DNA from: a virus
Length of the DNA stretch: 45,380 nucleotides
IMG/VR virus record: IMGVR_UViG_3300021478_000006
Location: 1 to 45,380 of that record
Strand: one strand, 5' to 3'
The notes under the pieces were generated by a model that was not told the DNA's origin, searched no databases, and saw only the letters and a list, made by a program, of their open reading frames with translations. The stretch's first letter is position 1; each line of letters begins with the position of its first letter. Positions 1,058 through 28,357 of the stretch are shown piece after piece. The position numbers and the translations under genes were made by a program.

Positions 1058-1996
1058 TTAATCCGACTCGGTGTTGGTCAACGAATCGGTTTGGATGATT
1101 GGGAATCCCATACAGCTTGTAGGCTGCGGGGCGACAACGCCTTGGTCAGGCAATGTGGTTCCTTGGCCAAACAGCGTAACAGTGCGTTGTGCTTGCAAGG
1201 TGAATACCGCCTGACGATTGGCGAACCAAGTCAATCCTTGGCGACGATTGAGTGGAATAAGCGCAATCAACTGCGCGGCCAGAGCATCTGTCCATTTATT
1301 GGTTGAACCCGTTCCTGAGATGCCGGTAATCGCCCAAACGGAGTATTGAGACTTGACCGACAACCCTATGAAACACGATATATTCGATACCCAAGCGAAC
1401 AAATGGCCCGTTCCAGATGCGATAATCGTAGTGGCCGCAACCTGCTGGCGCATGAATGGAGGCATGGCAATCTCACCATCATTTCCAACATCGAAAGATA
1501 CGCCCCAAGGATTGAACCACACGAGATATGCGCTGGTTGACGTGGTGGTGCCGCCAGCCGCGACAGAACCAGACAACTGGGAACGAAGTCCACCGAAACC
1601 GGATGCGGCATTGGAAGTGCCATAGTAAAACTGTGCGCCGATGGTAATCACGGCCTGTTGCAATGCGCCTTGAGCCTCATGGGAAAGAATATCACCAGTG
1701 GAACGGTCATCGCCCTTATAAATGGCTTCATCAACGTTAATCATCACATCGAGGAAGAACATTTCCTTGAGTTCCTTCTTGAAGGACGATTTGGCCGGGG
1801 TGGTGCCATTGTTCACATTACGGAAACCAACAGTCGGCAACGCGGTGCGCCGAACGATTTCGTAATAGGTTCCGGGCCGTCTGGTGACTGGCACAACGGA
1901 AAACTCCGGAGCATACGTGGTAACATCCTCCACGAGTCCGGTGAGAACATCATTCCGCTGTAGCGTTACAAGGTCGAGAAGTGTTAAATCAGCCAT
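1058..1996 (-). CDS. major capsid protein (HK97-fold type)
   Basis: A 312-aa protein following the protease/scaffold gene. The N-terminus has the pattern GLVEDVTTYAPE, then RPGTYYEIVRRTALPTVGFR and a KSSFKKELKEMFFLDV stretch, as in the major capsid proteins of many siphoviruses and podoviruses where the N-arm and E-loop follow these residues. The rest is Gly/Ala/Thr-rich with strands typical of the P and A domains (FANRQAVFTLQ). It would form the icosahedral shell. The gene order protease/scaffold, capsid, cement supports the call strongly. Confidence 0.85.
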   Translation of the reverse strand: MADLTLLDLVTLQRNDVLTGLVEDVTTYAPEFSVVPVTRRPGTYYEIVRRTALPTVGFRNVNNGTTPAKSSFKKELKEMFFLDVMINVDEAIYKGDDRSTGDILSHEAQGALQQAVITIGAQFYYGTSNAASGFGGLRSQLSGSVAAGGTTTSTSAYLVWFNPWGVSFDVGNDGEIAMPPFMRQQVAATTIIASGTGHLFAWVSNISCFIGLSVKSQYSVWAITGISGTGSTNKWTDALAAQLIALIPLNRRQGLTWFANRQAVFTLQAQRTVTLFGQGTTLPDQGVVAPQPTSCMGFPIIQTDSLTNTESD

Positions 1997-2003
1997 AATT
2001 CAG

Positions 2004-3200
2004 TTAGTTTGAGCGGTTCATTTTCAAGGCACCTTCGCCATGGGTTGACATGATTTGTTCTTCGATGGCGCGGGCGGAATCAGACAGTGTTTTGACTGGC
2101 GAATATTGTCCACCGCGATATTGAACGGAGGGAAGTTTCTGACCCGCTGAAAGGGTTGCCACCTTGGATTGCTTGGGAACCACGTCCTTTTTCAAGCTGC
2201 CGATAATCTCCTTGAGCATCGGAATGGCGATGGTTTTGAGTGAGTCGGCAGAGAGTGGGATGACTTTCCCCTGACGGCCAGCTTCGTCGATTATGCCCTT
2301 TCGTTCCTGTTCCTCGGCCTGTTTGGTCTTGGCGTCCAGTTCCAGTTTCATGGCGTCGAATGACGATTGCAAGGTGGTGAGCTTTGCGCCCATCATCTTT
2401 TCCATGGCGGCAAGTGTGGCCTCCATGATTTCGGTGCCGGGATATGGTGAAATAAGTGGGCCACCCTTTTTGACATCGCCGCCAGTCTTTTCAAAGTGAG
2501 CCTTGAGTTTTTCCATAACATCCTCGTAGGTGCAATCTTCCGGCATATCGAGTGCCTTCTTGATGAATTTCATGTGTTCTTCGTTCATAGAATTGTTATC
2601 GTTGCTATCCGCTTCGCCACGATAGGCGGTCGGGATGTTCTTTTTATTACCAAGCTGGAGTTGTGAATCGGGGACGGTCAGGGTCTTGATTTGAGCGGAA
2701 AGAGCCTTTTGCGCGGCGGAATCGAGAGTGAGATTATAAACCGCGCCAGTCGGGGTGAGAGCTACGGAATGAAGTCCAAGCACACGCCCGGTGGATTCGT
2801 CATACAATGGGGCCGGAGACAGGTCTTTGTAGTCCTTGAATGTTTCAGAGCCGGAAGGAGTGGTTTCAACCTTATTCAGGAAAATACCACTCCCCCTAAC
2901 CACAACCGGCACCCCATAACCGGCAATCGAACCTTTGCCCTGAGAAGCATTAAAAGCCGCCGTGCCTTCCACAGTGGAATGGTTGAAATCAATGGCAATT
3001 TCTTCCCGACCAAGTTTGGACTGATTCTGCGCGAAGCATTCAAGGGTGCCATCATCTACGAGGAAATCCCCTTCGCTAGTGCGGTTCATTCCCCAATCAA
3101 AAATCTTAAGCCGGGAGGGTAGTTTATCAGCATCCGTTCCCGCAAAAGCAGCCTTGAAACATTTCAAGGAAACCTTGGGCGGTGTAAGGGCTTTGGCCAT
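2004..3200 (-). CDS. Mu gpI-like prohead protease with C-terminal scaffold region
   Basis: A 398-aa protein. Residues about 1-160 match the Mu I protein pattern: IAIDFNHSTVEG (conserved D and H), then KDYKDLSPAPLYDESTG, then GLHSVALTPTGAV. Residues about 205-320 are charged and helical (EDVMEKLKAHFEK, KTKQAEEQERKG), as expected of an internal scaffold. In Mu the scaffold Z is also made from an internal start of I; here an in-frame Met lies at NSMNEEHMKF near residue 206, without an obvious ribosome site. It probably cleaves itself and the capsid N-arm during maturation. It sits directly upstream of the capsid gene. Confidence 0.85.
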   Translation of the reverse strand: MAKALTPPKVSLKCFKAAFAGTDADKLPSRLKIFDWGMNRTSEGDFLVDDGTLECFAQNQSKLGREEIAIDFNHSTVEGTAAFNASQGKGSIAGYGVPVVVRGSGIFLNKVETTPSGSETFKDYKDLSPAPLYDESTGRVLGLHSVALTPTGAVYNLTLDSAAQKALSAQIKTLTVPDSQLQLGNKKNIPTAYRGEADSNDNNSMNEEHMKFIKKALDMPEDCTYEDVMEKLKAHFEKTGGDVKKGGPLISPYPGTEIMEATLAAMEKMMGAKLTTLQSSFDAMKLELDAKTKQAEEQERKGIIDEAGRQGKVIPLSADSLKTIAIPMLKEIIGSLKKDVVPKQSKVATLSAGQKLPSVQYRGGQYSPVKTLSDSARAIEEQIMSTHGEGALKMNRSN

Positions 3201-6039: not shown

Positions 6040-7587
6040 TTAATCCGCCTTCTTCTGCGGAGATTTGCCGCCTTTTGACGCCATGCCTCCACTAATTGTC
6101 TGCGGTTCCGGGTCAATCTCAACATTGATGCCCAATTTCTCCGAAATCATCTCCATGGACTCAGGTGTGGCTCTTAAACCCGCCTGTTTGAGCGATACCA
6201 ACATGTCCGCATAACCCTTCGCATCTTCCTCATCAACCCCGCCCCAGACAATCCTAGGCGCATTACCGGGGATTCCATTAATCTTCATGAATGGCTCAAA
6301 CAACTGACGACGCAATGTATTTCCCAACAACTTTTGGTCGAACTGACGTATATCCTCCTTCACATCGGCATGCAAAGTAGCCGTGCCATCCCCGATTCCA
6401 CCACCCTTTTGTTGCTCGCTGCTGGTAGTCTGCCCCACGATAATCTTGGAAATCTCGCGGTTGCATGCGTCAAAGAACATCTTGAATCCCTCGCTCAGAT
6501 TAGTCGAATTGGCCGCAATCAACTCCACTTCATCCTTACGGTCAATGGCCATACCAAACACCTTGGTAGCAGTCTGAATGGCCGATTGCATGAAGTTCAC
6601 CGAATCCACCGATTGCGCGTTGGTCTTGCCCACAATGAACGGTGCCCCAAATCGTTCCATGCTGCGCGACCACCAATCCCTTGCCTGTATGCTCAGGAAT
6701 GCCCAAAACATGATTGAGCGCATCGAGGAGCCAAAGTTATCCCGCACCCCGCCAAACAGCGTCCCACGATGAATGATATGCCTCATTGGGTCAGGCGCAT
6801 ACATGTTCGCCCAACTGAAATCAATAAACCCATTCGGATATGTCCGGTAAAACCGCAAATCCGGTTCCCACGAATCAGGGTTCCAGACCGAGTCCATCGG
6901 TTCCACTGGATTCAATAAACCTGTCGGGGTTTGCACCGGCAATCTAGCTATGCCAGGTTGGTTCGGCAGATTAAACCCACCTTGCGCCAGATACGGTAGC
7001 TTATAACTGATCAACTCCGGCCACACACAAAAGAACTTCTTAAGCCCATACCGAACCCCGTTGCTAAATTGACCGGTATCATTGTCCTCGAATATCTTTT
7101 CATTCGCAATCGCTGGCCATAGGCAGGCATCCATCAAATGGCCAATGCCCATGTCCCAATTCTCGCAGTCCTCAATCATGTATTTGATGGCATCGCAAGC
7201 CACCCCATCACCACCCGCCTTCTTGTCAAAGGGCTGTATCGAATAGGGCGCGCCACAAACCACCATCTTTCGCTTGTTTAACTCTGATTGTATGTGAGCA
7301 CTTCCTAACGTGGTATCACGATACAATGTATAAAGCCGGTAAGTATCACCACGCTCTGCCTGACGTATGGCACTCTGAATATCGGATATACTGACTGTAA
7401 CCGTGGACAGATTTGGCGCAATTCCCCAACCTGACATGCGGCCTTTAATCTGCATTGGAACACTGCCACGCGGGCCAACCTCATCGCTGCCTTGTGGTAT
7501 AATCGGCAACTGTGGCATCTTGGCAGGTAATACGCCACTGAGGACATTCCCCATGGTATTACGCATTCGTTGTAGAATATTCGCCAT
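6040..7587 (-). CDS. portal protein, Mu gp29-like (DUF935)
   Basis: A 515-aa protein, usual length for DUF935 portals. Features: ISDIQSAIRQAERGDTYRLY near residues 67-86; TLGSAHIQSELNKRK; a conserved FLSIQARDWWSRSMERFG; and ADVKEDIRQFDQKLLGNTLR followed by an LFEPFMKING segment, all seen in Mu gp29 homologues. It forms the dodecameric vertex ring through which DNA enters the head. The start ATG overlaps the stop of a small upstream gene (TGATG). Confidence 0.9.
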   Translation of the reverse strand: MANILQRMRNTMGNVLSGVLPAKMPQLPIIPQGSDEVGPRGSVPMQIKGRMSGWGIAPNLSTVTVSISDIQSAIRQAERGDTYRLYTLYRDTTLGSAHIQSELNKRKMVVCGAPYSIQPFDKKAGGDGVACDAIKYMIEDCENWDMGIGHLMDACLWPAIANEKIFEDNDTGQFSNGVRYGLKKFFCVWPELISYKLPYLAQGGFNLPNQPGIARLPVQTPTGLLNPVEPMDSVWNPDSWEPDLRFYRTYPNGFIDFSWANMYAPDPMRHIIHRGTLFGGVRDNFGSSMRSIMFWAFLSIQARDWWSRSMERFGAPFIVGKTNAQSVDSVNFMQSAIQTATKVFGMAIDRKDEVELIAANSTNLSEGFKMFFDACNREISKIIVGQTTSSEQQKGGGIGDGTATLHADVKEDIRQFDQKLLGNTLRRQLFEPFMKINGIPGNAPRIVWGGVDEEDAKGYADMLVSLKQAGLRATPESMEMISEKLGINVEIDPEPQTISGGMASKGGKSPQKKAD

Positions 7588-25744: not shown

Positions 25745-26043
25745 AGTCCACAGACCAAATCATCATTGAGAATCTTACAACGGAGCTTGAACAGCTAAAG
25801 AAAGAGCACCTCCACTTATGCTCAAGTTCGGCAGATGACCAAGATATTATAGAACATCTTGAGAAGGAGATTCAGTCTTCGAAAGATGTGCTTACGAATC
25901 TTGCGAATAGCGCGGCATGTCTTTATAGCGATACCACTGATGCCATGGGTGAGAGCTTGGGTGCATCACGGCAGATGTTAAGGGGCGACTTAAGGGCGGC
26001 TAATGAACTGCTCAACCCTGCATACAAGGAACGAAATGAGTGA
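25741..26043 (+). CDS. hypothetical coiled-coil protein
   Basis: A 100-aa protein. The first 60 residues are coiled coil (ENLTTELEQLKKEHLHLCSS; DIIEHLEKEIQSSKDVLTNL). Its stop lies inside the first codons of the next, transposon-split gene. Confidence 0.52.
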   Translation: MKSTDQIIIENLTTELEQLKKEHLHLCSSSADDQDIIEHLEKEIQSSKDVLTNLANSAACLYSDTTDAMGESLGASRQMLRGDLRAANELLNPAYKERNE

Positions 26044-26087
26044 TTGCGGCTGCATCGACAAAATACGGGAGAATTTACTTAAGCATT
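26036..26087 (+). pseudogene. 5' fragment of phage gene split by IS1595 insertion
   Basis: Begins at ATG 26036 (MSDCGCIDKIRENLLKH) and is cut after 26087, the last base of the target duplication. As it stands, the frame runs 10 codons into the transposon and stops at 26117-26119. Joined to 28191 onward it gives a 73-aa protein with an N-terminal CGC and a C-terminal CPFC zinc motif, a common small phage architecture. Confidence 0.88.
26080..26087. repeat. target-site duplication, left copy (TAAGCATT)
   Basis: TAAGCATT directly flanks the left inverted repeat and is repeated exactly at 28183-28190. Eight bases is the duplication length typical of IS1595-family transposition. Confidence 0.93.
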
Positions 26088-26130
26088 GGGAATTATATAC
26101 AAAACAACCCTTTAAATAGCGTCAAAAGCC

Positions 26131-26160
26131 TTGTTTTCAACGAGTTTCGTCCTCTACAGT
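26131..26160 (+). promoter_or_regulatory. candidate promoter of the passenger gene
   Basis: TTGTTT (26131-26136), 18-bp spacer, TACAGT (26155-26160), then 26 nt to ATG 26187, with AGGGG about 8 nt before the ATG. It lies inside the transposon, so the passenger can be expressed wherever the element lands. Confidence 0.4.
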
Positions 26161-26186
26161 TTCCAAAAACCAAAAGGGGCACGAAT

Positions 26187-27038
26187 ATGACCGTTTTAGC
26201 AGGAATAATATGTCCGGATGGAATTGTCATTGCGGCGGATAGTCTGGCGATGGAAACCGCCGCTGGGTCACATTCAGAAATTGATAAAATCGCCGTCATT
26301 AATTTCAGGGTTGACCAAGCCTTGGTAGCCCAATCTGGGTTGACCTCAATCACCAACAGGATTGTAGAATTAATTCAGGAACGGGCAAAAGGCGTCCAAA
26401 TCACGAGTCCGAAAATTGTTACTGATATTGTTGAGGATTCAATACGTGCCGCAAAAGTTAAGCTGGATGACGACCAAAAGAATTATGTGAGAGATTACGG
26501 CGGGGCACACCTCATGCTTGCATTTTATGCAAACGGAAAACCGCAACTTTACACGATAAACATTTACGGAAGCGGCATCGTTGACCCCCCCGAACCCACC
26601 GCAACCCTTGGAGTTGGGTCATATCTGGCAACCTATCTTTTGCGCGAATTGCATACGCCACATTCCGAAATCATACTGGCGATAGGGACGCTCATTTACA
26701 CGATAAATAAAGTGAAAGACACTACTCGCTATTGCGGAGGAAAAACAAATATCAAAGTTTTAACTCCCGTGCCGGTATCAGGATGGCATTCCTTGACCGT
26801 TGGAAAATCGACCAATGTGCCACCCATCACGATACAATTAACGGAGCGGAATTTGTCCAAACTGGACAAGCAAACCAGTGAAGCCAGAAACAAAAAGCTA
26901 AAAAGAATCTTGAATCAGGTGGGCAAAAAAGTGTGGCAACGCCATCTGAAACAAGTGGAAATCGAAGAAAAAGCCCGCGAAAAAGGCGAGATAATAAAGT
27001 TCATTTCTACACTTGACAACCCTAAGGATGTAGGGTAA
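26187..27038 (+). CDS. proteasome-beta-fold Ntn hydrolase (transposon passenger)
   Basis: A 283-aa protein. ATG 26187 has AGGGG upstream and puts Thr directly after Met. Methionine removal would expose Thr1. The sequence TVLAGIICPDGIVIAADS gives Asp17, and SHSEIDKIAVI gives Lys33: the three catalytic residues of proteasome beta subunits and HslV at exact spacing. VAQSGLTSITNRIVELIQ fits the loop and helix that follow. About 230 residues form the fold; the C-terminus (residues about 235-283) is basic and helical (RNKKLKRILNQVGKKVWQRH). Likely a self-compartmented threonine peptidase or amidase. No partner ATPase is encoded nearby; substrate unknown. An upstream start at 26040 would block Thr1 and is unlikely. 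Confidence 0.78.
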   Translation: MTVLAGIICPDGIVIAADSLAMETAAGSHSEIDKIAVINFRVDQALVAQSGLTSITNRIVELIQERAKGVQITSPKIVTDIVEDSIRAAKVKLDDDQKNYVRDYGGAHLMLAFYANGKPQLYTINIYGSGIVDPPEPTATLGVGSYLATYLLRELHTPHSEIILAIGTLIYTINKVKDTTRYCGGKTNIKVLTPVPVSGWHSLTVGKSTNVPPITIQLTERNLSKLDKQTSEARNKKLKRILNQVGKKVWQRHLKQVEIEEKAREKGEIIKFISTLDNPKDVG

Positions 27039-27041
27039 TCT
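27013..27041 (+). promoter_or_regulatory. transposase promoter, near-leaderless type
   Basis: TTGACA (27013-27018, perfect), 17-bp spacer, TAATCT (27036-27041), then 9 nt to ATG 27051. It overlaps the last codons of the passenger gene. Confidence 0.65.
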
Positions 27042-27050
27042 GCTACCAGA

Positions 27051-27977
27051 ATGAAAAACGCATTTGCCTTTAAAACGCTGGCCGAGTTTCTTGAACACTT
27101 CAAAGATGAGGAAACGTGCCGTGAACATTTCACGGCCATCCGCTTTGCCAATGGCGAATATTGTCCGCATTGCGGGCATGCCAAGATTCACAAGTTTTCA
27201 GATGGCAAGCGGTATCGTTGCGCCTCTTGCAAACAAGACTTTCGTATCCAGACCGGCACAGTGTTTGGGGAGAGCAAGTTGCCTCTAAAAAAGTGGTTCA
27301 TTGCGATTTACCTGCTGTCCACGAGCAACAAGGGCATTTCCTCCGTGCAACTTGCCAAGCAAGTCGGGGTGACGCAAAAGACCGGATGGTTTATGGACCA
27401 TCGGATTCGTTCCGCGATGAAGCAGAACAAGGGGCAGCTTTTCGGCACTATTGAATGCGATGAAACCTACGTTGGCGGCAAGGAGGGGAACAAGCATAAG
27501 GACAAGAAAAACAAAACATCTCGTGGCAGGAACGCTCAAACAAAGAAGCCCGTTTTTGGAATGAGAAGCCGAGACGGTGAAGTGAGGGCAATGGCCGTTC
27601 CGAACTGCAAAGAAAAACTGATTATGGGAATCATCCAAGAGAACGTCGCGCAGGGAACAACGGTTCATACCGACGAAATGCTGTCCTATCGCAACCTGCC
27701 TTTGGCTGGTTTCTCTCATTTTACCATCCGCCACGGATTGAGGGAGTATGCAAGGGGTGAATGTCACACAAACAGCATCGAATCGTTCTGGGCGTTGTTT
27801 AAGCGCGGTTATCATGGTATTTATCATTGGATGAGTCCGAAGCACATGCAGCGTTACGTTGACGAAAGCGTGTTCCGCGTGAATCGCCGGGAAGAACCGA
27901 TGAACAGCATCTTTGCGGAACTGGTGGCGAACATGGCGAAGGGCCAACAACTCCCCTACAAAGAATTGACCGCATGA
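27051..27977 (+). CDS. IS1595-family transposase (ISXO2-like DDE)
   Basis: A 308-aa protein, full length for the family. An N-terminal zinc ribbon has CPHCGH at 38-43 and CASC at 57-60. A helix-turn-helix follows (ISSVQLAKQVGVTQKTGWFM). The catalytic acids lie in TIECDETYVGG (Asp137), TVHTDEMLSY (Asp208) and HTNSIESFWALFKRG (Glu244), the ISXO2-like pattern. No frameshift or stop, so it appears active. It cuts and joins the GGGAATT ends of the element. Confidence 0.93.
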   Translation: MKNAFAFKTLAEFLEHFKDEETCREHFTAIRFANGEYCPHCGHAKIHKFSDGKRYRCASCKQDFRIQTGTVFGESKLPLKKWFIAIYLLSTSNKGISSVQLAKQVGVTQKTGWFMDHRIRSAMKQNKGQLFGTIECDETYVGGKEGNKHKDKKNKTSRGRNAQTKKPVFGMRSRDGEVRAMAVPNCKEKLIMGIIQENVAQGTTVHTDEMLSYRNLPLAGFSHFTIRHGLREYARGECHTNSIESFWALFKRGYHGIYHWMSPKHMQRYVDESVFRVNRREEPMNSIFAELVANMAKGQQLPYKELTA

Positions 27978-28126
27978 GCAGACCGAAAAAATTACATCCC
28001 CCTTTAAAAGGAGATTTCAACAGCATTCTCAAGGCGATTGCCGCTGGGACTGGCAAGGTCAAACCGCCAGTGAAGAAGGCTAAGACAGTGCAAGCTATTG
28101 CCAAGCCAGTGACCCCCAAGAAATGA
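27974..28126 (+). CDS. small basic accessory ORF of the transposon
   Basis: A 50-aa frame overlapping the transposase stop by ATGA. Lys/Pro-rich (MSRPKKLHPPLKGDFNSILK, then VKPPVKKAKTVQ). Small basic ORFs are often found after IS1595 transposases; the function is unknown. Translation is probably coupled to the transposase. Confidence 0.6.
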   Translation: MSRPKKLHPPLKGDFNSILKAIAAGTGKVKPPVKKAKTVQAIAKPVTPKK

Positions 28127-28168
28127 GCCATGCCCCCGCCACGCGAAAGAAACGGCCAAGGGTAATAA

Positions 28169-28182
28169 TGTATATAATTCCC
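28169..28182. repeat. right terminal inverted repeat of the transposon
   Basis: TGTATATAATTCCC is the exact reverse complement of GGGAATTATATACA at 26088-26101. Next to it lies the right target duplication TAAGCATT (28183-28190). Beyond the 14 bases the two ends diverge. Confidence 0.93.
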
Positions 28183-28357
28183 TAAGCATTATCAGGCTGA
28201 CGAAATCGAACTTGATCTTGGGCAATTCATCAACCTCTCCACCGGCAAAACCACGACCAGTTATCAACCGCTGAGGTTCAAAGCGATTAAAGGTAAAAAG
28301 AAAACCAAAGGGCATGTGGACTTTAAATATTGCCCATTCTGCAAGAAGGAATTATGA
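28183..28357 (+). pseudogene. 3' fragment of phage gene split by IS1595 insertion
   Basis: Bases 28183-28190 are the right target duplication; from 28191 the phage frame resumes (QADEIELDLGQFINLS) and ends with HVDFKYCPFCKKEL at TGA 28355-28357. The C-terminal CPFC pairs with the N-terminal CGC of the 5' fragment. The stop overlaps the next gene by ATGA, as in the rest of the operon. The fragment has no start of its own. Confidence 0.88.

Follow-up and report, generated by a model that had tools for sequence, protein, structure and literature searches.

In the proteasome family, Thr1 attacks the scissile carbonyl with the assistance of Lys33 and Asp17, and in 20S beta subunits Asp166 and Ser169 also assist Thr1. 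Anbu has a Thr right after Met, the proteasome-beta fold and a C-terminal helical extension, and it is not known to have a dedicated ATPase. Passenger-carrying insertion sequences of the IS1595 family combine a zinc-ribbon DDE transposase, inverted repeats and an 8-bp target duplication with a passenger next to the transposase gene. The phage/prophage proteasome homolog (PPH) occurs in phage genomes, is about 140 residues long and has no helix H2, and connectase, which lacks H1 and H2 and has a two-helix insert, is a lone proteasome-like subunit acting as a specific protein ligase (PMC8665760). Fuchs et al. 2021 described 22 new proteasome homologs and found no genomic context that suggested a specific function (PMC8665760).

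The window, that is, the whole stretch of DNA analysed here, is the virus record of 45,380 bp of a Mu-like phage. It contains an IS1595-family transposon (Table 1), and the gene of a 283-aa proteasome-like protein (P0001) lies inside this element. The results showed the same features as in known carriers of this family. The transposase matched PF12762 (E 1.5e-44), PF12760 (E 1e-11) and NF033547 (209.9 bits, cut-off 75), 25-bp inverted repeats beginning GGGAATTATATAC bound the element, and an exact 8-bp target duplication flanks it. After the element and one duplication copy were removed in silico, a 72-aa ORF starting at 26036 was restored. The location of the gene in the transposon is well supported, and the initial annotation was right to call its product a passenger. 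We consider it very likely that the locus is a proteasome-like Ntn hydrolase gene carried as a passenger by an IS1595-family transposon inserted in a small gene of a Mu-like phage, and that it belongs to a loose group borne on IS1- and IS1595-type transposons. The Mu-like features of the host include a Mu-type portal, a Mu I-like protein and a GP7-type capsid (window positions 6040-7587 and 1058-3200).

Table 1. Coordinates of the transposon, its genes and its insertion site in the window.
Feature	Position	Strand	Basis or remark
Interrupted phage ORF, 5' part	26036..26087	+	Empty-site reading
Left 8-bp target-site duplication TAAGCATT	26080..26087	.	Same as 28183-28190; abuts the inverted repeat
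IS1595-family transposon with proteasome-like passenger, 2095 bp	26088..28182	+	Inverted repeats, duplication, transposase, restored ORF
Left terminal inverted repeat GGGAATTATATACAAAACAACCCTT, 25 bp	26088..26112	.	Similar ends in sister elements
Proteasome-like Ntn-hydrolase passenger (predicted), 283 aa	26187..27038	+	ATG at 26187, stop codon ends at 27038; PF00227, AlphaFold2 model, fold match to 20S beta and Anbu
Thr1 codon, predicted nucleophile	26190..26192	+	Aligned with proteasome beta Thr1; invariant in relatives
Asp17 codon	26238..26240	+	Register of proteasome Asp17; invariant in relatives
Lys33 codon	26286..26288	+	Register of proteasome Lys33; invariant in relatives
Conserved box, TTGACA-like hexamer and ACCCTAA/TAGGGT inverted motif just 5' of the transposase start	27011..27053	+	Near-identical in L002, L003 and L010
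IS1595-family transposase, 308 aa	27051..27977	+	PF12762, PF12760, NF033547
Small basic ORF, 50 aa, overlapping the transposase stop (ATGA)	27974..28126	+	Conserved in L002, L003 and L010
Right terminal inverted repeat, 25 bp	28158..28182	.	
Right 8-bp target-site duplication TAAGCATT	28183..28190	.	Exact match to the left copy
Interrupted phage ORF, 3' part	28191..28357	+	Empty-site reading

The passenger begins MTVLAGIICPDGIVIAADSL. When the residue after Met is counted as 1, Thr1, Asp17 and Lys33 have exactly the spacing of proteasome beta subunits, as the initial annotation had claimed. PF00227, a family of the Ntn hydrolase clan, matched residues 5-191 (E 6e-13, 49.3 bits, cut-off 22.4). 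In the phmmer alignment with mature mouse proteasome beta-7, no gap was present from Thr1 through Asp17 to Lys33, and a profile of ten relatives matched yeast beta2 starting at Thr1 (E 1.8e-9). T, D and K were invariant across 11 rows with 16-22% identity to P0001; they were also invariant, together with the glycine at the oxyanion-hole position, across 10 rows with 13-24% identity. Judged from these alignments, the register of the triad is not due to chance.

The AlphaFold2 model of the passenger was built with seven relatives from viral contigs (eight sequences in all). It had a pLDDT of 70.7, mostly 80-93 in the core, and a pTM of 0.69; the pLDDT from the lone passenger sequence was only 38. 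Anbu and 20S subunits took the top Foldseek ranks for this model (E 4.5e-11). VIA-align gave a Z of 23.4 with Thermoplasma acidophilum 20S beta (6bdf_1; 191 residues, 2.4 Å), where model residue 2 (Thr1) faces residue 1 of the chain, and a Z of 23.2 with Anbu. The identity of the passenger over the structure alignment with 20S beta was 14-22%. The model has helices at 53-67 and 75-97 (H1/H2) and at 145-155 and 162-179 (H3/H4). An alpha-beta-beta-alpha sandwich of the proteasome-beta type is well supported by the model, in keeping with the first reading of the triad, and a fold lacking the sandwich was not seen.

About 78 residues of the passenger extend beyond position 205. This region is mostly helical in the model at low confidence, including the C-terminal helices at 213-266. 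The basic helical tail noted earlier holds for the window protein, whose tail has a net charge of +8, but the charge in the related group ranges from -7 to +7, so a basic tail does not characterise the family. On the same range within the group (-7 to +8), the idea that the basic tail is a DNA-binding trait of the family was rejected.

The initial annotation also held that Thr1 would be exposed without a propeptide. No in-frame ATG, GTG or TTG precedes 26187 inside the window element, which makes Met-Thr the simplest reading of the start in this element. However, all eight transposon-borne genes have an open frame directly 5' of the Thr1 codon, and the residues it would encode are rich in Pro, Arg and Lys. 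These three residues account for 89 of 176 upstream residues, compared with 46 in shuffles, and none of 5000 shuffles reached 89. Four relatives from another branch (L016, L061, L068 and L128) have a stop within a few codons upstream, and so do two group members without a recognised element (L062 and L063). The open Pro/Arg/Lys-rich frame makes a translated leader, afterwards removed, possible in most transposon-borne members. Propeptides have been reported solely for proteasome beta and HslV in a survey of the family (PMC8665760).

The window protein shares its predicted fold and the Thr1, Asp17, Lys33 and Gly47 positions with 20S beta. It differs from 20S beta in having no recognised Gly(-1) propeptide and no alpha subunit; a protein search of the record and a scan of the other window ORFs found neither an alpha subunit nor a second proteasome-like gene. 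A 20S beta identity was ruled out by the archaeal beta equivalog TIGR03634 (25.1 bits, cut-off 224). HslV was likewise ruled out, as no HslV model was among the NCBIfam matches up to E 10. No AAA+ domain or unfoldase, hslU included, was found among the window ORFs scanned, which agrees with the earlier observation that no unfoldase is encoded nearby. With Anbu the protein has in common the Thr next to Met, the predicted fold and a C-terminal helical extension, but it lies outside the Anbu clade, has a longer C-terminal region than Anbu and is transposon-borne. Unlike PPH, it is 283 residues long and its model contains H1 as well as H2; the presence of these helices also separates it from connectase. 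It could be an outlier of a named class among the 22 homologs of Fuchs et al. 2021.

If Met or a longer leader is removed, the Thr1 hydroxyl would become the nucleophile, and Lys33, Asp17 and a backbone oxyanion hole would support its attack. A peptide bond would then be cleaved, or transferred as by connectase. The substrate may be an exposed, unfolded or small protein, handled with no dedicated ATPase. The passenger probably has hydrolase activity, and we lean towards an action independent of ATPases. The IS1- and IS1595-type transposons of this group hold exchangeable genes beside the transposase gene, and part of this cargo resembles toxin-antitoxin or defence genes; for this reason the enzyme is most likely accessory cargo. 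Such cargo may aid the persistence of the element or affect the host or a competing element; for example, the enzyme might destroy a specific protein of the host, a phage or a rival element. A role in genetic conflict or persistence is a tentative reading, to which we give somewhat less than an even chance. It is rather doubtful that the leader-bearing threonine hydrolases form a distinct clade of dedicated, ATPase-independent IS1/IS1595 cargo in mobile-element conflict, which would be an undescribed use of the proteasome fold. Transposon cargo is a new and unexplained setting for the proteasome-like enzyme family. Small, apparently ATPase-independent threonine hydrolases of this kind open the proteasome fold to study beyond bulk degradation.

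IMG/VR was scanned with IUPAC patterns for the leaderless family start, and Acidobacteriota genomes were searched with profiles; these searches yielded further genes. A strict DNA pattern scan gave no match; a looser one gave seven contigs. The data indicate that seven further transposons carry a triad-bearing proteasome-like passenger, five of IS1 type and two of IS1595 type (L019, L022, L044, L064, L065, L066 and L076), and all seven are bounded by inverted repeats. Exact 8-bp duplications were present in five of them: GGCGAAGG in L019, GAAATCTT in L044, CTCTGTGG in L065, AGATCGCG in L066 and TATCTTCA in L076. The copies in L064 agree at 7 of 8 bp, and no target duplication was found in L022, where both ends were read. 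The IS1-type transposon of L019 (L019:7087-10866) is inserted within a CRISPR-like array, and its ends are fixed because the CRISPR repeats continue on either side. The Acidobacteriota sample includes seven genes of the transposon-linked clade, and four of these are inside such elements. At the other nine Acidobacteriota proteasome-like genes no element bounded by inverted repeats was found, the repeats having been sought around some of the nine. L067, which has an IS630-like neighbour as read from the sequence, and L075, which has an IS1595-like fragment, were left uncounted because they lack bounding inverted repeats.

The window element differs from known IS1595-family passenger carriers in its proteasome-like passenger, a kind of cargo of which no report was found in the literature searched (most subscription journals were outside its coverage). 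The enzyme family was already known, as were passenger-carrying IS elements; in the literature searched, the recurrent pairing of the two appears new. It gives proteasome homologs a clear genomic context, namely precise transposons of two families, bounded by inverted repeats, with the enzyme as exchangeable cargo, and this context is a handle on the function of the enzyme.

The transposases of three sister elements (L002, L003 and L010) show 61-78% identity to that of the window element over the matched part. Terminal sequences similar to those of the window element, GGGActTATATA..., are present at both ends of L003 and L010 and at the left end of L002. A 60-bp box with a mean column identity of 90% is common to the window element and the three sisters, which have other passengers, and the last residues of the window passenger (LDNPKDVG) and its stop codon are written in it. 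The box is probably a transposase promoter/operator; it was not among the listed matches of a consensus promoter scan. The 50-aa ORF is 43-50% identical to its counterparts in the sisters, and on this comparison it is assigned to the transposase module and not to a toxin-antitoxin pair. Other genes of the sisters differ, and the proteasome-like gene is absent. Since the sisters are alike in ends and box and unlike in their other genes, the proteasome-like gene appears to occupy an exchangeable passenger slot. In L002, a tRNA-Asp (GTC) gene (L002:4741-4831) is present between the left inverted repeat and the transposase.

Twenty IS1-type loci were sampled via the transposase alone. The proteasome-like gene was in none of them, and several carry HigB/HigA-like or HTH/peptidase-M78 genes. 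The enzyme as a standard IS1-type component was rejected on this count (0/20), and it is therefore a minority cargo of passenger-carrying transposons. Acidobacteriota IS1-type transposons with ends GGTAGTG... (L103-L122) frequently have toxin-antitoxin-like passengers. Since the cargo of related transposons differs and includes toxin-antitoxin-like pairs, the enzyme seems to be swappable cargo and not a core transposition factor.

As an alternative, the enzyme might be a regulator that tunes transposition through cleavage or maturation of a target protein (the transposase, the small basic protein or a host factor). Two transposase families are repeatedly paired with an adjoining enzyme, which leaves room for such a role. 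Among the seven further transposons, the two genes are tail-to-tail with ends at most about 15 bp apart in six, and the gap is about 300 bp in L065. The end of the window gene also falls inside the promoter-like box. However, sisters with similar ends, a near-identical box and a related transposase lack the gene, as do the 20 IS1-type loci, and we regard regulation as unlikely.

Proteasome-like genes of a sister branch are in two-gene operons, directly 3' of a gene for a 144-217 aa protein (L016:480-1768, L018:5719-7021, L061:5229-6476, L068:4385-5727, L128:3390-4765, L129:1561-2981 and L130:222-1605). The partner has a weak SocA/Panacea antitoxin match in some copies, below curated cut-offs. 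The L129 operon seems to lie between terminase-like and portal-like genes, as read from the sequence. Panacea proteins are known antitoxins (PMC8832971). The enzyme could be one component, toxin or antitoxin, of an addiction module that keeps the element in the cell, and elements of the same kind do carry HigBA-like pairs. Against this, the Panacea-like matches do not reach curated cut-offs and belong to the sister branch rather than the transposon group, and the window element has no obvious partner; besides the transposase, its coding strand has no second passenger ORF of at least 60 aa. We judge an addiction module to be improbable.

No close relatives of P0001 were found by single-sequence search of plasmids and phage records or by a peptide-pattern scan of IMG/VR, where only weak local matches appeared. 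The same search of GTDB contigs and 387 Verrucomicrobiota genomes also gave only weak local matches. The weak local match in L013 was dismissed as an unrelated protein. A profile search of 367 Verrucomicrobiota genomes gave eight weak matches, and those examined are Anbu-like or belong to the Panacea-linked branch and are not transposon-borne. PADLOC gave no match for the passenger, and PHROGs nothing significant.

A tree computed from 30 proteasome-like proteins groups the eight transposon-borne ones with three relatives without a recognised element (support 83/89). The Anbu clade (100/100) is separate from this group, and so is the branch tied to weakly SocA/Panacea-like genes. P0001 forms a long branch, and support for the group as a clade, judged from the tree, is modest. 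A single clade for all eight transposon-borne genes was not rejected (p-AU 0.27), nor was one for the three IS1595-borne genes (p-AU 0.39). Cargo is commonly captured from neighbours, and a PPH-like protein could have been picked up by chance and be functionless for the transposon. Phages do carry proteasome homologs (PMC8665760; L017, L020 and L021). This seems a poor explanation, as at least seven more transposons carry such a protein, these group together and not with PPH in the tree, and T1, D17 and K33 are retained in all transposon-borne copies. A catalytically inactive fold, serving as a structural or binding module, is equally hard to favour: proteasome alpha subunits are inactive (PMC8665760), and counterparts of 20S beta Asp166/Ser169 are seemingly not conserved in the passenger group, which has a CGGKT motif in their place, but even highly divergent members retain Thr1, Asp17, Lys33 and the oxyanion glycine without exception.

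Other genes accompany the enzyme in some IS1-type transposons. In three of them (L064:9074-9391, L066:6441-6743 and L022:8257-8583), one inverted repeat adjoins a shared basic ORF of roughly 100 aa with a GRKGGQIGGKRRLKTM motif, for which the copies tested gave no match in Pfam or NCBIfam. The 4.9-kb transposon of L064 also holds a TIR-domain protein (PF13676, E 1.1e-11) at L064:8591-9067 besides the enzyme.
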